64,000 nt of DNA from contig JAFWKK010000011.1 of assembly GCA_017514235.1 (NCBI GenBank), positions 1 through 64,000 on the forward strand, written 5' to 3'. The position numbers were made by a program, and so were the translations under genes. This stretch comes from Kiritimatiellia bacterium (lineage in GTDB: Bacteria > Verrucomicrobiota > Kiritimatiellia > RFP12 > UBA1067). The notes beneath the pieces were generated by a model. That model made no database searches. It saw only the letters and a program-made list of their open reading frames with translations, and was not told the DNA's origin. Every line of letters starts with the position of its first letter. Within the stretch, counting starts at the first letter, position 1. Shown here one piece after another: positions 55,026-64,000 of the stretch.

Positions 55026-55119
55026 GGAGAGATGGCCGAGTGGCTGAAGGCAACGGTTTGCTAAATCGTCGTACGGGTTAATTTCCGTACCGAGGGTTCG
55101 AATCCCTCTCTCTCCGCCA
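55026..55119 (+). tRNA. tRNA-Ser(GCT)
   Basis: Acceptor GGAGAGA pairs with TCTCTCC (55109-55115); discriminator G and encoded CCA at 55117-55119. The anticodon loop TTTGCTAAA gives GCT (AGC/AGU Ser). A long variable arm (CGTACGGGTT...CCGTACCG) and the T-loop GGTTCGAATCC are present. Its 3' end is the boundary between GC-rich chromosome and the AT-richer island, so it is a candidate integration site. Confidence 0.95.
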
Positions 55120-55135
55120 TTTACGAAAAGAGACT

Positions 55136-55166
55136 CTCAGAATTTCTGTTCTGAGTTTTTCTTTTC
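55136..55166 (+). terminator. intrinsic terminator after tRNA-Ser
   Basis: Stem CTCAGAA (55136-55142) with TTCTGAG (55149-55155), 6-nt loop, followed by a T-rich run (TTTTTCTTTTC). Confidence 0.8.
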
Positions 55167-55460
55167 TGTTGCTCAGAATCCCTAAGGGTTTGGCACGTTT
55201 TGGCCGTTATGGGAGGTCATAATACATCGCCGCTGCATGCGCGAAAGAAGCTGATGAGTTTGTGAGAGCTGAGATGTTGCTTTCATAATTAAAAACGCTT
55301 GGGCTGGGCTGCACATTATCTCCTTATTATCGCAAAGGCGAGAATTTGTATGTTGATCAAGTCGTTATATTGATGAAAATTCAGTTAACATGAAAGAAAC
55401 ATTTATCTAACCAGCCATACGCAACAATTCGGTTTCCCCTATGCATTGTGCGATGGGATA
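55167..55460. other. non-coding start of the accessory island
   Basis: About 290 bp without a supportable gene. It is distinctly AT-richer than the preceding region. A stretch at 55223-55288 could encode a 21-residue tail ending in TAA but matches nothing I recognise. No integrase, direct repeat of the tRNA 3' end or transposon end is visible. Confidence 0.5.
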
Positions 55461-55469
55461 TGGTATAAT
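55461..55469 (+). promoter_or_regulatory. extended -10 of the island operon
   Basis: TGG-TATAAT at 55461-55469. The DUF4236 gene starts at 55499 with AAGGAAG. This is the only strong promoter seen before the whole DUF4236-vWA-PP2C-kinase-vWA run. Confidence 0.8.
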
Positions 55470-55498
55470 TTAGTCCAATTGAAACAAGGAAGTTCAGA

Positions 55499-55780
55499 AT
55501 GGGTTTTAGGTTCCAAAGGCGAATAACGATTCTTCCTGGTGTTTCAATCAACATCGGGAAGCGCGGCACCTCAGTTTCTGTGGGGCCGCGAGGGGCGCGC
55601 ACGACCATAGGGTCGCGTGGCGTCAGGCATAGCTTTGGAATTCCAGGCACAGGAATCCGTTATGAAACGCCGTATAGGAAATGGGGGCATTCTCAGCAAA
55701 ATGCACTCCCGCCTCCGCCGTCTGCCGAACGTCCGCACGTTTCCTTGTGGGAACGATTACTGAACTTGTTAGGATTTTGA
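55499..55780 (+). CDS. DUF4236 protein
   Basis: 93 residues. The first 60 residues are the DUF4236 signature: GFRFQRRITILPGVSIN, then GKRGTSVSVGPRGARTTIG and FGIPGTGIRYET, a beta-rich Gly/Arg repeat. The C-terminal 30 residues are Pro-rich and basic. Function is unknown; the domain occurs at the start of membrane-linked or phage-associated proteins in many bacteria. It precedes the vWA gene by 39 nt in the same orientation and is probably co-transcribed. Confidence 0.8.
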   Translation: MGFRFQRRITILPGVSINIGKRGTSVSVGPRGARTTIGSRGVRHSFGIPGTGIRYETPYRKWGHSQQNALPPPPSAERPHVSLWERLLNLLGF

Positions 55781-55819
55781 TTTTGTTCAACCCAAAAACC
55801 GAAAGGAAAAAAAGAAACA

Positions 55820-56458
55820 ATGAGGCGACTACCAGTATACTTGCTTGTCGATGTGTCGGGATCGATGCACGGCGAGCCTATCGAGTCCGTGAAGAACGGA
55901 CTGCAGTTGCTTGTTGCGGCCTTGCGCAAAGACCCGCAGGCACTTGAGACCGCCTATCTAAGCGTCATCACATTCGGAAGTAGCGCACAACAGATTGTAC
56001 CGTTGACGGAACTGTCGGCATTCAATATGCCGGAGATATCCGCTGGTGGATGCACGGTCCTTGGCGAAGCTCTCCAGCTCGTGTGCAAGTGCCGCGAAAA
56101 TGAGGTTACGAAGACTACGGCTGAGCAAAAGGGAGACTGGCGGCCGATGGTGTTCATTCTTACTGATGGAGTTCCAACGGACGATCCTCAGCCTGGCATT
56201 GACAAGTTCCGTTCGATGAAATGGGGCGCGTCGGTAAGTTGTGCAGCCGGCCCTGGTGCAGACAAGGCGTTGCTCGATAAGATAACGCCTGAGTGTGTCG
56301 TGGAGCTGGCCTCGGCAGACCAATCTACGCTTTCGGCGTTCTTCAAGTGGGTCACCGCTTCGATTGTGTCAACGTCTAAGAGTATCAATGAATCTGGTAC
56401 TTCCACGGGGTCTATGGATCAACTTCCGCCACCTCCGCCAGAAGTTCAGATCGTCTGA
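55820..56458 (+). CDS. vWA-domain protein, TerY-like (TerY-P triad, first copy)
   Basis: 212 residues, the usual size of TerY. One von Willebrand A domain: MIDAS DVSGS at about 11-15, the MIDAS Thr in CTVLGEAL near 78, and TDGVPTDD near 114 with the third ligand. The C-terminal tail (about 180-212) is Ser/Thr-rich and ends in a Pro run, with no zinc ribbon. In TerY-P loci this protein scaffolds a phosphatase and a kinase, which follow directly here. A purine-rich GAAAGGAAAAAAAG precedes the ATG. Its N-terminus closely matches that of the second vWA protein. Confidence 0.88.
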   Translation: MRRLPVYLLVDVSGSMHGEPIESVKNGLQLLVAALRKDPQALETAYLSVITFGSSAQQIVPLTELSAFNMPEISAGGCTVLGEALQLVCKCRENEVTKTTAEQKGDWRPMVFILTDGVPTDDPQPGIDKFRSMKWGASVSCAAGPGADKALLDKITPECVVELASADQSTLSAFFKWVTASIVSTSKSINESGTSTGSMDQLPPPPPEVQIV

Positions 56459-56483
56459 TAAAAAGTGGTCTTCTCATTCGATT

Positions 56484-56512
56484 CCAGGCGGACGGCATTG
56501 ACCGCCGCCTGG
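56484..56512 (+). other. GC-rich hairpin between vWA and PP2C genes
   Basis: CCAGGCGG at 56484-56491 pairs with CCGCCTGG at 56505-56512 around a 13-nt loop. No U-run follows. It may moderate read-through or stabilise the processed mRNA. Confidence 0.5.
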
Positions 56513-56560
56513 GATTGGTGTGCAATGATGGGGACCAGACAGATGGGATGATTGCTTGTT

Positions 56561-58351
56561 ATGGGCAGTGAAGTCACATACTCGGAAGGCAAGTTGACGC
56601 CCCTTCAGGAACTTTACCTTCGACCTAACGCAAAGCACGGTCGGCAAGAAGAACGTAATTTGGCCATGTCTAATGGAGAAAGAGTCGAAAAAATGGATAC
56701 GGAAAACGTCAGCATTCAGCATCCTGCCGTTTTGACTGATGAAAACTCAGTTAAAGACGTTATCAACGTAGGACGGCAGCCAGAAGAAGATTTCGGCAAC
56801 GAAAATCATGGCGAAACTGACACTGCAGAAGTGACAGAGACCAAAGATAATTCTTCCGACTCGCAGAATACGGCGACAGCGGAAGGTGCGGAGCAATTGC
56901 CAGAAGACGCAAAAGCGAGTAGTGCAACTGAAGATACAAAAAATGTTCCCGCCGAGAGAAAGCCCGAAGTTCAGGTGCCGCCGGTAGAAATCAAGGGTGG
57001 AGTGTATTCGGATAAAACAGACGTTGTATCTTACCCCGACAAGCCAGAAAGACTGCCAAACATCACGTTGGGGCGGGAGCCTCGTTCGGCTTCCTTCAAG
57101 TTGAGCAAGGGCATTGTTCTTAAGCTCAAATCCGCAGAGGAAAGAGAAGGCTGCTGGAAGTATGAGCAAGTGAATGAGAACGGTGAAGATAAGATATGCT
57201 TCACTCCATTCAAGGCTGGCGAGTATGAAATCCCGGTGGAGTACAACGACGGGAAAAAACTGTTGTTTCACCTGACAGTAAATCCAGATCCGTGGTCGCT
57301 TTGGACAGTTGAAGAGATAGATGAGAAACTTAAAGTGTTTTCTTCTGACCAAGAGCGTATTGATGGCAACCACAAAGATGTAATAGCGAAAGAGTATCCT
57401 GGGTTAAAAGTGGTTGGCGCAAGCCATAGAGGACGTTCGCACGAGCGTTCAGGAACATTTCGCGATGATGATATGGGGGTCTGGGCGGATGAAGAAAACG
57501 GCAATTATGTGTTTATAGTTTCTGACGGGGCGGGTAGTTGCAGGTTTTCACGCGAAGGTGCAAGAATCGCGATTTCCTTTATTAAGGAGAAACTTGAGAG
57601 TAACAAGGCGCGAATTGAAGAGGCTTGGGCAAAGTCAAAGATCACGGAGAATCGCGACTGCCCAATTGGCATGACACTAACACAGCTTGCTCGACTGGCA
57701 AAGGACAAACTGTCTGCCTATGTCGCCGAAAACAAAGAAGCGCATCCAGACTGGAAGGTCAAGGATTTCAGCGGTACATTGCTGGTTGCGGCATTGAAAC
57801 GGGAGAAAGATAGAACGTTGCAATTAGTGACACTGTCAATTGGCGATGGTGCTATTGCTTGGTACTTGGGTGGCGGTAAGCATGGGCTGATGTGTTGCCC
57901 AGATTCGGGGGAGTTTGGAGGAGGCACCCGATTTTTGACAACGCCGGAAGTGTGGAAGGCCATGTCTGAAAGTAAGACTAATGAAGACATGACAAGGGCG
58001 TACAAAGAATTCTGCAATAGGCGAGTATTCTGCAAACGATTTTCACCGGAAGAGGCAAAGTCATTCCAACTCTTTTTGATGTCAGATGGCGTTTCTGATC
58101 CTTGGTTTGAGACGGATGCTCGTCTTGAGAATGGAGATGAATGGCGGCGATTTGCCGAGGAGACTCTGTATGGCGACGGAGATAATAAAGCAAAGTTAAA
58201 ACCTTGCGATTCGGTTGATGTCATGGCAGAAAAATTGTTTGCATGGCTGGAATTCAAGATTGCGGGCAACCACGATGATCGAACAATCATCGTGGTCTAT
58301 TCTGCTGAAGATGCAAAGAACGATGTTCAGTCGGGAAAGAAGGAGGCGTAA
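56561..58351 (+). CDS. PP2C-type protein phosphatase with long N-terminal extension (TerY-P triad)
   Basis: 596 residues from the ATG at 56561. The start is uncertain: a TTG at 56552 and ATGs at 56666 and 56693 are in frame and none has a good ribosome site. About 1-135 is acidic and low in complexity. About 150-245 looks like an Ig-like beta domain (FTPFKAGEYEIPVEYNDGK). The PP2C domain runs from about 280 to 590: RDDDMGVWAD near 302, SDGAGS near 321, SIGDGAI near 426, SDGVSD near 508 and DDRTIIVVY near 571 supply the metal ligands. Expected to reverse the action of the kinase that starts 1 nt after its stop. Confidence 0.85.
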   Translation: MGSEVTYSEGKLTPLQELYLRPNAKHGRQEERNLAMSNGERVEKMDTENVSIQHPAVLTDENSVKDVINVGRQPEEDFGNENHGETDTAEVTETKDNSSDSQNTATAEGAEQLPEDAKASSATEDTKNVPAERKPEVQVPPVEIKGGVYSDKTDVVSYPDKPERLPNITLGREPRSASFKLSKGIVLKLKSAEEREGCWKYEQVNENGEDKICFTPFKAGEYEIPVEYNDGKKLLFHLTVNPDPWSLWTVEEIDEKLKVFSSDQERIDGNHKDVIAKEYPGLKVVGASHRGRSHERSGTFRDDDMGVWADEENGNYVFIVSDGAGSCRFSREGARIAISFIKEKLESNKARIEEAWAKSKITENRDCPIGMTLTQLARLAKDKLSAYVAENKEAHPDWKVKDFSGTLLVAALKREKDRTLQLVTLSIGDGAIAWYLGGGKHGLMCCPDSGEFGGGTRFLTTPEVWKAMSESKTNEDMTRAYKEFCNRRVFCKRFSPEEAKSFQLFLMSDGVSDPWFETDARLENGDEWRRFAEETLYGDGDNKAKLKPCDSVDVMAEKLFAWLEFKIAGNHDDRTIIVVYSAEDAKNDVQSGKKEA

Positions 58352-58352
58352 C

Positions 58353-59876
58353 ATGGCTAAGAATGGCGACAAGGTAACTGTGCGTTCCGTTTCCGGGAAG
58401 ACATACGAATATATCTGGAAGGACACACCTTCTTCTGGAGCCATGAAGGATGTGTATTTCTCTCCCGATAAATCTTATGTCGTAGCGTTTTTCAAAGATC
58501 CGCAGGACGCGAATGCCATTGACAGACTTCAGAACCTTGTTGGAACCTATCGACAAGGCATTTTTGGCGGGCCTGGCGGAGACTACTGGAAGAAGATTTA
58601 TTGCTGGCCAACCGATATTGTCCGTGAAGGCAATAAGGTCGCCATTATTGTTCCTGCGTATCACAAGGAGTTCTTCTTCACATACGGCAGCAAGACGCTA
58701 GATATCAAGAGCGGCGAGAAAGAGGGCAAATGGTTTACCAATCCGTGGCATCGGTATTGCAATCTGGATGCAAGGGAAGTTGGTGACTGGCACAGCTACT
58801 TTGACATCTGCCTTCTGCTGGCACGTGGAGTTCGCCGCATGCACATGGCTGGGTTGGCACATTCCGACCTTTCCTACAAAAACGTACTTGTCGATCCAGT
58901 CTCGCACTCTGCGGCCATTATTGACATTGATGGCCTTGTTGTGCCTGGAAAATATCCGCTTGATGTTACTGGCACACCAGACTTTATCGCGCCAGAGGTG
59001 TATGCAACAATGCATCTGCCGAAGAGCGACCCTAATCGTAAATTGCCTAACGGCAACACTGATTTGCATGCCTTGGCAGTTTTGATATATATGTATCTGC
59101 TTTGCCGACATCCTCTTGAGGGAAAGAAGATTTGGGATGTTGAAGACGAGCAACACGACAAGACCTTGGCCTTTGGCGAGAAAGCGGTGTTTATTGAAGA
59201 CCCGACAAATAAGATCAACAGATATAATGTTGATTGGGTGAGAAACAATCAGCCTAAGTCTCGGTTGCCGTATATGCTTCCTTGGATGGACTTGGATAAA
59301 CTGCCCTATACCATTCTTGGCCCATATTTGAAGGACTTGTTTGACAGGGCATTTATTCAAGGACTCCACAATCCGTCGATGCGTCCCAAAGCCTTTGAAT
59401 GGGAGGACGGACTGATACAGACGATGGATTTGATGATTCCATGTCAAAATCCGAATTGCAAGCAGAAATGGTTTGTGTTTGACAACTCGGCATCCAATCC
59501 CAAATGCCCATTCTGCGGCACTCCGTACAAGATCCCTTTGCCTGTGTTGAATCTTTACAACAAGGCGAATACGTCCTACAAGCCTACGGGCATGCGCGTG
59601 ATGGTGTATAACGGAACGAGGCTTTATCAGTGGCATGCTAATCCGAGGGTTGCCCGTAACGAGAAACTGACCGGCGAGCAGAAGAAGTCGCTTGCCTGCT
59701 TCCAGTTCCATCAGGGCAAATGGTATCTACGCAATGAGCGTGCCAAAGGAATGACTGATTTGCAGACCAAACAGTCTATCCCTGCCGGAAGCATCGTAGA
59801 ACTCAAGGATGGCGTCCAAATCCGCCTTGATGACGAGAATTCAAGGATGATTTATGTGCAGATGGTAAACAAGTAG
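58353..59876 (+). CDS. Ser/Thr protein kinase with zinc ribbon (TerY-P triad)
   Basis: 507 residues; AGGAGGC is 7-13 nt before the ATG and only 1 nt separates it from the PP2C gene. The kinase core shows HSDLSYKNVL at about 170-179 (Asp172 catalytic, Asn178) and DIDG at about 191-194 in place of DFG. GTPDFIAPEVYA follows as the APE motif. The Lys of VVAFFK near 50 is the likely ATP anchor. A C4 zinc ribbon (CQNPNC near 364, CPFC near 387) and a beta-rich C-terminal domain follow. The kinase belongs to the family paired with TerY and PP2C proteins. Confidence 0.88.
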   Translation: MAKNGDKVTVRSVSGKTYEYIWKDTPSSGAMKDVYFSPDKSYVVAFFKDPQDANAIDRLQNLVGTYRQGIFGGPGGDYWKKIYCWPTDIVREGNKVAIIVPAYHKEFFFTYGSKTLDIKSGEKEGKWFTNPWHRYCNLDAREVGDWHSYFDICLLLARGVRRMHMAGLAHSDLSYKNVLVDPVSHSAAIIDIDGLVVPGKYPLDVTGTPDFIAPEVYATMHLPKSDPNRKLPNGNTDLHALAVLIYMYLLCRHPLEGKKIWDVEDEQHDKTLAFGEKAVFIEDPTNKINRYNVDWVRNNQPKSRLPYMLPWMDLDKLPYTILGPYLKDLFDRAFIQGLHNPSMRPKAFEWEDGLIQTMDLMIPCQNPNCKQKWFVFDNSASNPKCPFCGTPYKIPLPVLNLYNKANTSYKPTGMRVMVYNGTRLYQWHANPRVARNEKLTGEQKKSLACFQFHQGKWYLRNERAKGMTDLQTKQSIPAGSIVELKDGVQIRLDDENSRMIYVQMVNK

Positions 59877-59893
59877 AGAAAGGGAATAGAGAA

Positions 59894-60895
59894 ATGAGAA
59901 GACTACCAGTATTTGTAGTTGTCGATGTGTCTGAGTCAATGGCAGGGAATGCCATTACTGCGATGCATGACGGGATGCAGATGCTTCTTCAGGCATTGAA
60001 GAAAGATCCGATGGTCATTGAGATAGGTGCGATGTCCGTTATTTCGTTTGGCGGCAAGGCGAAAGTCGAGGTTCCGCTTTCGTCTGTGTTGGATATCAGA
60101 ATTCCATCGCTTGATCTTTCGTCGGGGACGAGCCTTGGAAAGGCATTTGACCTGCTGACATCCGAGGTCAATTCCAAAGTGACAAAGACCACGCGGGAGA
60201 TTCGTGGCGACTACAAGCCAATCGTGTTTCTTATCACTGATGGGCAACCCACAGACGACTGGCGTGCTGGGTATGCCAAGTTCCGCAAGTGTTATCCCTC
60301 CGTGTCGATTCATGCCGTCGGATGCGGGGACGATGTTGACTTTTCCATCCTTAAGGAAATTACGCCCAACACCTATGTCATGAGGGACATGACGGCAGAG
60401 TCGTTCGGGAAGCTCTTTCAGTGCGTAACGGCATCCGTCAGGAGCGTAACGGCCTCAATGATGAACGGCGACGGAGTGAAGGACGATCTTGCGGAGTTGT
60501 CTGATGGCGAGGTGCGCAAGCCGACCGAGGTGGAGTGCCGCCCGATTGGTGAATCCCGGCAGGTTCTCATCTCCGCCATGTGTTCAAGAACAAAAAGACA
60601 TTTTCTGATTCGATACAAGAGGGGAGAGTTTGGCAAGTTTGCGTTGTCGGCTGTCCATCCGCTGGAACAAAAACTCGCTGGCGGAGGTGCGTCTGGCGGC
60701 AACATCAATGTAAACGAGCTTAATAGTAATGGCTTCAAATGTCCTCATTGCGGCAATACCGGTATGTTCTACTGCAACACTTGCCATGCAGAGGTTTGCA
60801 TGGAGCCGGGCGGAATGCATGGGCATTGTCCTGGATGCGGTTGGGATGGTGAGCTTACATACGGCAGTTTTGATCTTCATAAATCGCTTGGCTGA
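59894..60895 (+). CDS. vWA-domain protein with C-terminal zinc ribbon, TerY-like (second copy)
   Basis: 333 residues. The vWA domain (about 1-190) has MIDAS DVSES at about 11-15, GTSLGKAF near 79 and TDGQPTDD near 117. From about 215 to 270 is a beta domain, and from about 282 a zinc-ribbon tail (FKCPHCGNTG, YCNTCHAEVC, CPGCGWDG) typical of TerY-C. The N-terminal MRRLPVF/Y...VDVS and even the DNA around it resemble the first vWA gene, so they share origin. GAAAGGGAATAGAG precedes the ATG. It closes the triad after the kinase (17-nt gap). Confidence 0.88.
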   Translation: MRRLPVFVVVDVSESMAGNAITAMHDGMQMLLQALKKDPMVIEIGAMSVISFGGKAKVEVPLSSVLDIRIPSLDLSSGTSLGKAFDLLTSEVNSKVTKTTREIRGDYKPIVFLITDGQPTDDWRAGYAKFRKCYPSVSIHAVGCGDDVDFSILKEITPNTYVMRDMTAESFGKLFQCVTASVRSVTASMMNGDGVKDDLAELSDGEVRKPTEVECRPIGESRQVLISAMCSRTKRHFLIRYKRGEFGKFALSAVHPLEQKLAGGGASGGNINVNELNSNGFKCPHCGNTGMFYCNTCHAEVCMEPGGMHGHCPGCGWDGELTYGSFDLHKSLG

Positions 60896-60912
60896 CGTCC
60901 TGAAGCATGATT

Positions 60913-60921
60913 TGGTATAAT
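60913..60921 (+). promoter_or_regulatory. extended -10 of the DUF4062-ATPase gene (leaderless GTG)
   Basis: TGG-TATAAT at 60913-60921 with a -35-like CTGACG at 60892-60897. A GTG at 60928 follows after 6 nt. The in-frame ATG at 60907 lies upstream of the -10 and is rejected. Confidence 0.78.
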
Positions 60922-60927
60922 TCGGCC

Positions 60928-62403
60928 GTGAAATACAGAATCTTCATATCAAGCGTACAGCGGGAATTCGCACTGGAGCGAAGGGCGCTTGCGGACTATA
61001 TCCGCAGGGACGCGCTTTTTGGAAAGTTCTTTGAGGTATTTATATTTGAGGAAACTCCTGCCGCGAGTGTTTCTGCACAAAAGGTGTATCTTGATGAGGC
61101 GCGAAATTGTGATGTTTACCTCGGTCTCGTTGGCTTGAAATACGGTAATGAAGACAACAAAGGTGTTTCGCCTACAGAGCGCGAGTATGCAGCTGCTGCG
61201 GGTGCATCTCGGCATGTCCTTGTATTTGTTCGTGGCGGAGGCAACTCCGTCCGCGAACCTAAAGAAGAGGCGTTCCTCCGTAGGATAGAATCAGAAAGAG
61301 TGCGTAGGTCTTTCAGAACAATCCGAGACTTGCGAGCGACGCTGGCCGTGTCGCTTGTGCGGTTTCTTGAAGAGCAGGGGAAGATACAGACTGCGCCGTT
61401 TGATGCGTGCGTTGCAGTAGGGGCGAGGCTGTCAGATTTGAGTGTAAAGAAGATGCGCGACTTCGTGAAAACGGCGCGTGAAATCAGAGGATTCCGTCTG
61501 CCGGTAAATGTTTCTGCCAAGGACTTGCTTACGCATCTCAACCTGATTCGTGCAGATGGCGGGATAACGAACGCCGCGATTCTCCTATTCGGCAAGAACC
61601 CTCAGAGGTTCTTCATCAATTCTGAGGTGAAATGCGCACAGTTTTATGGTGTTCATGTCGAGAAGCCAATGGCTGACCATCAGATATATCAGGGCGATGT
61701 ATTTGAACTTGCGGATCAGGCGACTAGGTTTGTTATGACGCATGTATCCAATTGGGTTGGAACTAGAAGCGAGGGCACAAGCGTAATCGTTCCGACGAAG
61801 TACGAGCTTCCGTACGACGCTGTTAAAGAGGCCATAGTTAATGCTATATGCCATCGGGACTACACCAGTCATCAGAGTGTGCAAGTTATGCTGTTTGCCG
61901 ACAGGCTTGAGGTTTGGAATGCTGGACGGCTTCCAAAGGGCTTGACGGTTGCAGACTTGAAGCGGGCGCATTCCTCATTGCCGCCTAACGAGCTTTTGGC
62001 GCTTCCGATGTATCTCAAAGGAGCAATAGAGAAGACTGGCACGGGGACCGAAGACATGGTAAAGCAATGCCGCAACTGGGGCCTTGCTGATCCTGAATTC
62101 ACGGATGGCCCAGATTTCCGCATCGCCATTCGCCGTCGTACCAGTGTCGATGTCCCCGCAAATGTCCCCGCAAATGTCCCCGCAAATGTCCCCGCAAAAG
62201 GAGAGGCGGAGGCGTTCCTGCAATCGGTCAAAGAATCGCCTGGGTTAGGGACGGCTTTTCATGCGACTAAGCTTGGTAAGACACGGCGGACGATAAAACG
62301 TTATGCGGCTGCGTTATCTGATGTTGTTGAGTTCCGAGGAGGCACGAAGACCGGTGGGTATTTCGTGAAGGATCACAGGCAATCAAGGGAGCCTGATTCA
62401 TGA
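60928..62403 (+). CDS. DUF4062 domain fused to a RecG-like/AlbA-type ATP-binding protein
   Basis: 491 residues from GTG. About 1-95 is DUF4062 (YRIFISSVQREFALERRAL; NCDVYLGLVGLKYG), a TIR/STING-neighbouring fold often found in defence genes. About 170-410 is the ATP-binding region of the AlbA/RecG-like family (SAKDLLTHLNLIRADGGITN; KEAIVNAICHRDYTSHQSV; GAIEKTGTGTEDMVKQC). Four exact-like 12-bp repeats encode VPAN units at about 408-424, then a helical tail. It starts 12 nt after a separate promoter but lies only 32 nt from the triad. Its stop overlaps the helicase start in ATGA. Confidence 0.8.
   Translation: MKYRIFISSVQREFALERRALADYIRRDALFGKFFEVFIFEETPAASVSAQKVYLDEARNCDVYLGLVGLKYGNEDNKGVSPTEREYAAAAGASRHVLVFVRGGGNSVREPKEEAFLRRIESERVRRSFRTIRDLRATLAVSLVRFLEEQGKIQTAPFDACVAVGARLSDLSVKKMRDFVKTAREIRGFRLPVNVSAKDLLTHLNLIRADGGITNAAILLFGKNPQRFFINSEVKCAQFYGVHVEKPMADHQIYQGDVFELADQATRFVMTHVSNWVGTRSEGTSVIVPTKYELPYDAVKEAIVNAICHRDYTSHQSVQVMLFADRLEVWNAGRLPKGLTVADLKRAHSSLPPNELLALPMYLKGAIEKTGTGTEDMVKQCRNWGLADPEFTDGPDFRIAIRRRTSVDVPANVPANVPANVPAKGEAEAFLQSVKESPGLGTAFHATKLGKTRRTIKRYAAALSDVVEFRGGTKTGGYFVKDHRQSREPDS
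62149..62196 (+). repeat. four tandem 12-bp repeats encoding VPAN
   Basis: Units of the form AATGTCCCCGCA at 62149, 62161, 62173 and 62185 (the first begins GAT). They keep the frame of the ATPase gene and encode a linker; copy number is likely to vary between strains. Confidence 0.9.
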
Positions 62404-64000
62404 TTTGGTCTGGTGAGTATTTCAAGTGTCGCGACTGCGGGGAAATCTATCCCTACAGGGCGCCGCAATGCCCTTGTTGCGGAGGAGTTTGCGATAGAAT
62501 CGGATCATTCGTCAGGGAGGATTTCAGTGATTGGTCTCCGCATGATTCTGGTGCTGGTGTCGGAGATGTTGGGGGGCCATTAAAGCCTCTGGGCCGTGTG
62601 GCGCGATGGGCTCAGAAACTGCTTGATTTGTCTCTTGGCAATCGTCTTTTGAATCTTAAAGATTCAAAGAAGATAATTCCGCTGCTGTGCCCCAACATTG
62701 GTGCGCTTGAGGATAGCATAGCGGCAAACGAGGCGGTAGTCATCCAGTCGCTTTCTGGATTGCTGGGGGAGCAAAAGTACCAGGATTATCTGCGGGGGCA
62801 ATTGAGCTACAGTCCTGCGGATTTCAACACTAATCTTGAGAAGGAGCTTGGCAAGCACCATCTATGGACTAAGTTGTCGCCTCCTGAAACGCAGAAACGG
62901 CTGAAGGAATTGTACAGGCTTGCTAAGCTTGACTTGGAGGAGTCTGGCGTCAACACGCTTTTCCTTGCGCTGGGTTTCTTGGAATGGAATCTTGGGGAGA
63001 ATGACGAGCGCACTTATCGTTCGCCGATCCTGCTTGTGCCGATTAGATTTGAGCGACGTTCGATAACTGATGGCATACGGATGATGCGTCTTGACGACGA
63101 TACGGTTCTTAATGCGACCTTGGTGGAACTGTTGCGTTGTCAGTTTGGCATTACGGTTAATGGCATTGATCCACTTCCGCTTGACGCTTCGGGGGTGGAT
63201 GTTCCGCAGATCATGGATAGATTTCGCGATGTGGCGGCGCAGAAGAAAGGTTGGATGGTTTCTGAAGAGGCAATGGTCGGGCATTTCTCCTTCGGCAAGT
63301 TCGTGATGTGGAAAGACATGACATCGCGGATTGAGGCTTTCAAGGAGAACAAGCTTGTCGCACATCTTATCAGCGGTGGTGGAATGTACGATGACGGAGT
63401 CGAGGTGTTTCCCTCCGAAGAGGTCGCCAAGCACATAGATCCTGCTTTACTGTATTGTCCGATGAGTGCTGACTCATCGCAGTTAACGGCAGTCCTATAC
63501 TCCGCGATAGGCAAATCTTTTGTTTTGCACGGGCCTCCGGGAACGGGCAAATCCCAAACCATCACCAATATTATTGCGCATAATCTTGCAATAGGGCGCA
63601 AGGTCCTGTTCGTCTCTGAGAAGAAGGCTGCACTGGATGTGGTCCATAAACGGCTGTCGTCAATCGGGCTATCGCCGTTCTGCCTTGAACTGCATTCTAA
63701 CAAGACGGGTAAAGCCGAGGTGTTGGCTCAATTTGCGGCTGCCTTGAAAGTTGCCGACAGGGCGGAACCTGCGAATTGGGGCGCAACTGTCGATTCGATA
63801 AATCGGCTGAAAGGAGACCTTAACGGCTACGTCGATGCACTGCATTTTGTGTACCCTAACGGCAAATCCGCGTATGACTGCTTCTGCGTCCTCATGCACA
63901 GGGGCGCATCGCGTTTCGACGGATGCATAGATATAGATTGCAAGACGCAAACGTTGGAAGAATACAATGCACTTGAAGGTATCGTAGCCAATTATGCCAA
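62400..64000 (+). CDS. DUF4011-type superfamily 1 helicase (cut by window end)
   Basis: At least 533 residues; no stop before 64000. The ATG at 62400 overlaps the preceding stop. About 8-30 is a Cys4 zinc ribbon (CRDCG, then CPCCGG). From about 70 comes the DUF4011 region (KLLDLSLGNRLLNLKDSKK; FLALGFLEWNLGEND; PILLVPIRFE). Walker A HGPPGTGKSQTITN is at about 377-390, followed by LFVSEKKAALDVVHKRL, typical of SF1 DNA helicases. Full-length relatives often add a Vsr-like nuclease and DUF3320, which would lie beyond the window. It probably acts on DNA in anti-phage defence (inference). Confidence 0.85.
   Translation, partial: MIWSGEYFKCRDCGEIYPYRAPQCPCCGGVCDRIGSFVREDFSDWSPHDSGAGVGDVGGPLKPLGRVARWAQKLLDLSLGNRLLNLKDSKKIIPLLCPNIGALEDSIAANEAVVIQSLSGLLGEQKYQDYLRGQLSYSPADFNTNLEKELGKHHLWTKLSPPETQKRLKELYRLAKLDLEESGVNTLFLALGFLEWNLGENDERTYRSPILLVPIRFERRSITDGIRMMRLDDDTVLNATLVELLRCQFGITVNGIDPLPLDASGVDVPQIMDRFRDVAAQKKGWMVSEEAMVGHFSFGKFVMWKDMTSRIEAFKENKLVAHLISGGGMYDDGVEVFPSEEVAKHIDPALLYCPMSADSSQLTAVLYSAIGKSFVLHGPPGTGKSQTITNIIAHNLAIGRKVLFVSEKKAALDVVHKRLSSIGLSPFCLELHSNKTGKAEVLAQFAAALKVADRAEPANWGATVDSINRLKGDLNGYVDALHFVYPNGKSAYDCFCVLMHRGASRFDGCIDIDCKTQTLEEYNALEGIVANYA

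Follow-up and report, generated by a model that had tools for sequence, protein, structure and literature searches.

A TerY-P triad of ter-operon type beside two zinc-ribbon helicases in a putative defence island of a Kiritimatiellia bacterium

The window analysed here is the first 64,000 nucleotides of contig JAFWKK010000011.1 (C78:1-64000) from the 3.96-Mb, 82-contig, 92% complete genome of a Kiritimatiellia bacterium (GCA_017514235.1), and our subject is the island that begins in it behind a tRNA-Ser gene. In this island a TerY-P triad, that is, a TerY-like vWA protein, a PP2C phosphatase and a kinase, is followed by enzymes that include two DNA helicases, each with a short zinc ribbon at its N-terminus. 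Judged from sequence, phage defence is the likely role of the island. Our reading, offered tentatively and as possible rather than probable, is that a TerY-P switch of ter type governs several effectors in an operon that came by horizontal transfer and is probably directed against phage. This reading draws on the tight run of the genes, the tRNA edge with its drop in GC, the sporadic occurrence of the kinase, a helicase that reaches the cut-off for the anti-phage protein ProA, the pairs of similar ribbons, and the pairing (100/100) of the kinase with that of locus L060 in a tree.

What does the TerY-P switch act on? We suggest, with more doubt than attaches to the operon as a whole, that in a TerD-less TerY-P lineage the N-terminal zinc ribbon might be a plug that couples interchangeable effectors, namely the SF1 helicase-nuclease, the UvrD helicase and an FGE-fold protein, to the kinase-phosphatase-vWA switch. 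Immunity would then be gated by phosphorylation and addressed by tags, and effectors would be recruited by a ribbon that replaces the native N-terminus. If this is true, the ribbon names the direct clients of the TerY-P switch, which could be predicted from a short motif of about 35 residues, and a zinc-ribbon example is added to the effector-recruitment logic of the vWA-MoxR systems. The set is a variant of the known TerY-P system; the ribbon tag is the most original point and rests on two loci.

The run comprises twelve genes, all on the + strand, from contig position 55499 to 74857, with intergenic gaps of, in order, 39, 93, 1, 17, 11, -4, 36, 12, 3, -4 and 21 bp. Seven lie in the window, the last of them cut by the window end: DUF4236, vWA, PP2C, kinase, vWA-TerY_C, DUF4062-HATPase and the DUF4011 helicase, a contiguous same-strand series that the initial annotation had described and whose members have Pfam matches. 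The other five follow on the contig: a 276-aa membrane protein, a 1182-aa membrane protein with Sel1 repeats, a 510-aa UvrD-like helicase, a 274-aa paralogue of the first membrane protein and a 265-aa Ion_trans (K+-channel-like) protein. Active-site or metal-site motifs are present in both vWA proteins, the PP2C phosphatase, the kinase, the nuclease and both helicases. Promoter and terminator scans gave the same counts as in shuffled sequences. The contig ends at 75754, and the right end of the island lies beyond it. The features are as follows.

55026..55119, + strand: tRNA-Ser(GCT) (ARAGORN), left edge of the island and apparent accessory hotspot
55499..55780, + strand: DUF4236 protein, 93 aa (Pfam 73.9 bits, 1.5e-20)
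55820..56458, + strand: vWA1, TerY-like, with intact MIDAS (Pfam VWA 1e-11; DxSxS, T and D motifs)
56552..58351, + strand: PP2C phosphatase with an N-terminal extension, true start uncertain (Pfam PP2C_2 2.7e-33; SDGAG, SDGV, DDRT)
58353..59876, + strand: Ser/Thr kinase with zinc ribbon and predicted C-terminal FHA-like domain, 507 aa
59894..60895, + strand: vWA2 with TerY_C metal-binding domain and intact MIDAS (Pfam VWA 1.1e-12, TerY_C)
60907..62403, + strand: DUF4062 and HATPase_c_4 protein with VPAN repeats (Pfam 2.1e-18 and 4.2e-15)
62400..64000, + strand, the gene continuing to contig position 67253: zinc ribbon, DUF4011, SF1 helicase, MTES_1575 nuclease and DUF3320 (Pfam, NCBIfam ProA)
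62400..62504, + strand: N-terminal zinc ribbon of this helicase, C-x2-C-x-E-x-Y...C-P-x-C-x3-C, proposed address tag
Contig position 71685, outside the window: second ribbon copy, at the start of the UvrD-like gene

The triad and its ter-operon lineage

As defined in excerpts of PMC11090510, a TerY-P triad consists of a TerY-like vWA protein, a PP2C phosphatase and a kinase with a C-terminal zinc ribbon, and all three stand side by side here. The same excerpts hypothesise a metal-sensing phosphorylation switch with many partners, and excerpts of PMC10889362 report a TerY-P system under which P. aeruginosa is protected from phage and the majority of cells survive; the present system, of ter lineage, may or may not do the same. 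The kinase matches Pkinase of Pfam at 5.8e-07 (29.6 bits, just below the cut-off of 31.7) and has the catalytic motifs; Asp172, singled out in the initial annotation, is the Asp of HSDLSYKN and is invariant in 45 kinases. A fold test predicts an FHA domain at the kinase C-terminus, placed after the zinc ribbon, where the Arg, Ser, His and Asn of the canonical phosphothreonine-binding motif are not evident by eye in a 34-row alignment. The second vWA protein has the sole TerY_C match in the genome (29.2 bits against a cut-off of 28.4), and the first is 72% identical to the vWA protein of locus L052 in genome G397. Profile searches against defence-system models, which had been proposed with the first description of the island, gave matches to ProA and PDC-S37 for the DUF4011 helicase and a weak PD-T4-6/MkoA match for the kinase; vWA1, PP2C and vWA2 matched no PADLOC family, in a search for which it was not established that PADLOC-DB 2.0.0 includes TerY-P models.

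Where does this triad belong? The kinase has matches in 2348 of 72,556 plasmid records, mostly enterobacterial, and the plasmid kinases are about 53% identical to it among the matches listed (40). In one enterobacterial record, pECO-109b (IncHI1A), ter genes, DUF4236, vWA, TerD, vWA, vWA-TerY_C, PP2C and kinase follow one another consecutively, and the ter locus of pPNAP04 is similar, without a gene named DUF4236. The island resembles these ter operons in its vWA, vWA-TerY_C, PP2C and kinase of the same type, and in the case of pECO-109b also in DUF4236. It differs from them in its order, vWA-PP2C-kinase-vWA, and in that the proteins of its operon have no Ter-type match, DNA helicases, a nuclease and membrane genes being found instead. 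With a TerY_C-bearing vWA and a kinase of ter lineage the island has one mark of a Ter system; TerD (PF02342), the other, has no match in the 92% complete genome. By its sequence, then, the triad is of the ter-operon type, yet its genome is without a TerD match. The earlier picture of an accessory, defence-type island with a TerY-P triad stands as far as the triad, the accessory position and the neighbouring defence-type enzymes go, and needs to be amended in that the triad is of the ter-operon lineage.

A scan of genome contigs gave at least 514 relatives of the kinase, and the best 80 were used for neighbour counts by tblastn in flanks of at most 10 kb. In 74 of the 80 loci the flank extends 2.6 kb beyond the kinase, roughly the distance at which the helicase gene begins in the island; 57 extend to 7.4 kb and none to 12 kb. 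Because of these flanks, the UvrD gene, the second membrane paralogue and the channel would be invisible at the distances seen in the island. PP2C is present in 78 of the 80 loci and Ter-type genes in 59 (TerD/F/C in 58, metabolite genes in 15); the other 21 have no Ter-type gene in the flanks, from which alone TerD was judged, and several of these are on short contigs. DUF4236 occurs in three. The initial annotation did not recognise the combination with DUF4236 and DUF4062; DUF4236 beside the triad is not new, being present in the ter locus of the IncHI1A plasmid and close to the triads of L058 and L089. The DUF4011 helicase, UvrD, both membrane paralogues and the channel were found in none of the 80 loci; in one locus, L063, the DUF4062 protein has a relative, through its HATPase part only. 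The earlier proposal had been made to depend on co-occurrence of these neighbours in homologous loci, and with these counts within the 10-kb flanks the recurrence of the triad with the DUF4011 helicase and the DUF4062 protein is not shown. The DUF4062 protein as a new partner of the triad was likewise abandoned, L063 being the only case among the 80.

Could the island be directed against stress? It might be a module for metal, xenobiotic or DNA-damage stress, in which a switch derived from Ter, and lacking both TerD and metabolite genes, drives DNA-repair helicases rather than phage defence. The ter-operon lineage of the kinase speaks for this, as do the CxxC or zinc-binding domains on the kinase, vWA2, both helicases and the channel, and the Cys/His repeats of an 85-aa open reading frame (ORF) at the tail of the island. 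So do the other triads without nearby Ter genes, a separate Bacteroidota clade with fixed companions. In a 52-row kinase tree the island kinase and that of L060, from the same contig as L052 of G397, form a pair (100/100), and the Bacteroidota triads without nearby Ter genes (L077, L093, L104, L105, L125) group elsewhere, also at 100/100; this separate grouping suggests multiple origins for the triads that lack Ter neighbours. Against a stress module stand the lack of a TerD match in the island's own genome, a helicase that reaches the ProA cut-off, and the sporadic occurrence of the kinase in a tRNA hotspot, and we hold it to be unlikely.

The Bacteroidota loci L077, L093, L104, L105, L114 and L125 have features of their own. 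In each, a vWA-PP2C-kinase triad without nearby Ter genes is followed by the same two genes, the first for a protein of 331-367 aa with an N-terminal hydrophobic stretch (a weak Ppx-GppA match in L093, the one tested) and the second for a protein of 247-255 aa that starts MSFLKQLL; in L114 an extra gene lies between the kinase and these two. A Bacteroidales contig labelled as yak cecum carries tandem copies of the TerY-P kinase (L115:9986 and 11487), the second 47% identical to the island kinase.

The N-terminal zinc ribbons

The helicase-nuclease starts with MIWSGEYFKCRDCGEIYPYRAPQCPCCGGVC and the UvrD-like helicase with MTWSGDYSQCHNCKEVYPFAITECPCCHSPC. At the G397/L052 locus, whose kinase is 72% identical to that of the island, the triad is directly followed by genes for a protein of 183 aa and an FGE-sulfatase protein of 349 aa, both of which have similar N-terminal ribbons; the front ends of these two proteins are close copies of one another. 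Upstream of that triad lie an FRG-domain protein (L052:5495-6616; PADLOC PDC-S15, 149.5 bits) and a TPR/FGE-sulfatase protein (L052:3850-5460). A regular expression for the ribbon found four genes at two loci among 94 stretches, L060 and L052 being one locus, and one further, unlike, internal match in L051. Because the G397 copies belong to the small 183-aa protein and to the FGE-sulfatase protein, the ribbons are not a helicase feature; at each locus two unlike proteins carry similar ribbons, which may be one and the same small domain, though their kinship is only slightly above that of ordinary ribbons.

A model of the island ribbons, searched against 7322 ORFs, placed the G397 ribbons first after itself (7e-8 to 4e-7), with an FmdB-like protein (by reading) next at 6e-4, and the reverse model, made from the G397 pair, had the island ribbons as its top non-self matches (7e-4 to 0.055). 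The searches were repeated with ribbon loci from a search of the phylum added as background (8199 ORFs). In the forward direction the G397 ribbons were still first (7.5e-8 to 4.3e-7), the next match, at 4.5e-5, being to a small protein of L184 with a ribbon at its N-terminus. By hhalign the island pair and the G397 pair are mutual best (97.1%, score 49). For whole genomes a four-ribbon model was used, in which the scores of the four themselves are circular. With it no other gene in the present genome (G000) or in G397 scored better than 0.018; in 387 genomes of the phylum 19 match at 0.001, and the best outside the two loci is at 1.7e-5. The two island ribbons are weakly alike in their codons (the same codon at 11 of 15 shared residues, against 7.7 expected).

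Fifteen of the 17 other matching loci were viewed, each over roughly 3 kb at most. As judged by eye, their products include small membrane proteins and proteins that resemble rubrerythrin, flavodiiron proteins and tRNA synthetases, some with N-terminal ribbons (L184, L185, L187 and L194), and no triad gene was seen in these pieces. Small proteins among them (L194:1261-1581 and L184:784-1128, minus strand, about 3 kb seen around each) have N-terminal ribbons rather similar to the proposed tag, an example being MNCEYCDSPLAYEITECPHCGAPC.

Is the ribbon a plain nucleic-acid-binding add-on of helicases, unconnected to the triad? Zinc ribbons often bind nucleic acid, and ordinary ribbons score nearly as high against our models; excerpts of PMC11090510 also propose nucleic-acid binding for the ribbon of the kinase. 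Against an add-on of helicases stand the ribbons on the small protein and the FGE-sulfatase protein of G397, and the UvrD and ProA homologues that we read are without it. There is no CxxC in the first 420 residues of three plasmid ProA-type homologues, which have an N-terminal region of about 350-400 aa at the position of the ribbon, nor is there one near the N-terminus of three UvrD homologues; this control covered 3 of 450 ProA-matching and 2 of 150 UvrD-matching plasmid records plus G350, seven homologues in all with a paralogue on contig C73. We regard the add-on as unlikely.

How, then, might a tag-addressed operon work? The kinase would phosphorylate the module, its FHA-like end reading or holding a partner, and PP2C would reset the phosphorylation state. 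The vWA proteins would bind metal and scaffold the complex, and the state would be read through them. The N-terminal ribbon would dock the ProA-like helicase-nuclease and the UvrD-like helicase on this switch, and infection or DNA damage would change the phosphorylation such that the helicases are released or activated and attack foreign DNA. A part as membrane sensors, or as a last-resort effector acting by depolarisation, would fall to the membrane proteins and the K+-channel-like protein. The initial annotation's proposal that phosphorylation gates a response, with the adjacent ATPase and helicase as effectors or a second system, is kept in conditional form.

Effectors could in such a scheme be exchanged by way of the ribbon, much as effector-associated domains (EADs) allow in the vWA-MoxR systems. 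According to excerpts of PMC7159879, effectors are recruited there via a small EAD, of which the core protein has a copy. The island would be similar in that a small non-enzymatic domain, if the ribbons are indeed one domain, is carried by unlike proteins beside a vWA core, and in the FGS/FGE partner domain; it is unlike in that the zinc ribbon is not an EAD described in those excerpts, and neither MoxR nor VMAP is among the island's Pfam matches. The difference in ribbon-bearing partners between the two sister loci is what that recruitment principle would predict. In the portions covered of the open-licence literature (PMC11090510, PMC4978471, PMC10250203, PMC10889362, PMC13092281, PMC7159879) we found neither a zinc-ribbon tag nor an FHA domain in TerY-P.

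A number of findings weigh against our reading of the operon and its tag. In the reverse search of the 8199 ORFs, five ordinary ribbon ORFs (1.3e-5 to 5.7e-4) outrank the island ribbons (7.5e-4 to 0.062), and the hhalign margin is small, 12 ordinary ribbons reaching up to 95.5% (38.5) with the island pair and up to 96.5% (44.3) with the G397 pair. Because the searches with added background put ordinary ribbons this close, a specific kinship of the island and G397 ribbons, only slightly above that of ordinary ribbons, is favoured and not more, and a stronger claim of unique kinship was dropped. Zinc ribbons are short and common, small unrelated proteins can have one at the N-terminus too (L184, L187, L194), and the ribbon in question is carried by two loci only. 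No core component clearly has a copy: hhalign, over short stretches, gives 77.6% for TerY_C (19 columns) and 31.6% for the kinase ribbon, which with this last figure was rejected as source of the tag. Finally, Ter genes beside most of the 80 kinase relatives favour a stress role, and DUF4011 helicases were found beside none of them within the flanks.

The helicases and the membrane genes

The full helicase-nuclease has 1617 aa, with a DUF4011 match in Pfam at 9.3e-40. It scores 1518.5 bits against the NCBIfam ProA model (NF058533), above the equivalog cut-off of 1500, over model positions 354-1902 of 1903; positions 1-353 are unmatched, and the match is not full-length. Against PADLOC PDC-S37 it scores 1200 bits. 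Like ProA and PDC-S37 it has the domains from DUF4011 to DUF3320, and unlike ProA it has the short ribbon instead of the long N-terminal region. By these domain matches it is an SF1 helicase with an MTES_1575 nuclease, with the ribbon in place of the ProA N-terminal region. The genome has a second ProA-like DUF4011 helicase-nuclease, on contig C73 (L007:10265-13822), 51-60% identical in two long pieces; it starts at DUF4011 without a zinc ribbon, and no triad is found in the 40 kb compared.

The UvrD-like protein gives about 108 bits with NERD-UvrD and GajB models (GajB up to 107.9). Gabija was rejected, as there is no GajA among the 10 of 12 operon proteins searched against PADLOC, the two small membrane paralogues not being included. 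In G350 a UvrD relative adjoins a protein that looks like DarT by reading, and two plasmid matches bear the DarT name.

Are these CoCoNuTs? The island is like the CoCoNuTs and the stand-alone TerY-P systems, as they appear in excerpts of PMC11090510 and PMC10889362, in combining vWA, PP2C and a zinc-ribbon kinase with nucleic-acid enzymes, and its duplicated vWA is like that of CoCoNuT type III-A. It is unlike both in having a DUF4011/ProA-type helicase and no McrB/McrC, in a kinase whose ribbon is followed by a predicted, terminal FHA-like domain, and in neighbours that bear zinc ribbons. CoCoNuT was rejected, as the 12 operon proteins have no Pfam match to an McrB-like GTPase or McrC at 1e-3.

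Do these genes form one system at all? The island could consist of several independent defence systems lying side by side with no common mechanism: the triad, a ProA-like enzyme on its own, and a set made up of UvrD and membrane genes. That the DUF4011 helicase was found beside none of the 80 other kinases within 10 kb fits this, as do ProA-like genes without a triad in 40 kb of contig C73 and in two plasmid stretches of 12 kb that are annotated. Against it stand the narrow gaps, -4 to 93 bp across 19 kb, and the similar ribbons that are carried by both helicases here and by two non-helicases next to the sister triad and are absent from the untagged homologues that we read. An assembly of unrelated systems strikes us as rather unlikely.

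The two small membrane paralogues (L005:12791-13621 and 18715 onward) are 36% identical and share a WQYVNK.GGPD.RF motif; no Pfam match (E <= 10) was found for the first or for most of the second. By tblastn the first is related to plasmid proteins, of which many bear the name DUF4236 and one that of TerB N-terminal, and the likeness is in the part behind the membrane segment. The Ion_trans protein has a TVGYGD filter and a C-terminal CPHC. In the DUF4062 gene, the VPAN repeats are encoded by a perfect tandem of a 12-bp repeat, ATGTCCCCGCAA (window 62150-62197; L005:7651-7698), possibly a linker of variable length.

The tRNA site and the distribution of the kinase

GC is about 0.63 before tRNA-Ser(GCT) and 0.47-0.53 after it, and stays low through about 73.5 kb, where the profile ends. 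The flank that ends in this tRNA is matched at E <= 0.001 in 56 of 57 genomes of the genus, the present one included, some matches being short or tRNA-only. A relative of the kinase at E <= 1e-30 is found in 2 of 346 genomes of the class and 2 of 115 of the family, the present genome being counted in each. Among the 97 nearest-relative genomes, kinase matches outside the present genome are at 1.2e-7 or worse and cover the general kinase core, and the best among 58 congeners is at 3.4e-5. In a draw from the phylum the kinase is matched at 1e-10 in 11 of 387 genomes, six of them, the present one included, at 1e-100 or better. Viral contigs gave no match to the kinase and helicase patterns, and 33 matches to the membrane-pair pattern with no relative among them.

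In the closest congener, G004, the flank is 94% identical, and the same tRNA is followed by another low-GC stretch (about 0.51). The DNA downstream in G004 matches the present genome in a 51-bp stretch (84%) at contig 75019-75069, near the contig end, and in four places elsewhere. Because the same tRNA carries a stretch with a Fic gene in G004, and a remnant of 51 bp has its match here, the tRNA-Ser site looks like a tRNA accessory hotspot. The Fic gene of G004 (Fic, Fic-like_C and a weak VbhA match) is at L162 188-1405 on the minus strand. At the far end of our contig, C78:75412-75669, the 85-aa ORF with three Cys/His repeats (CxxCGSxS...GC...H) may encode a small protein that binds zinc, which would lie at the island's end.

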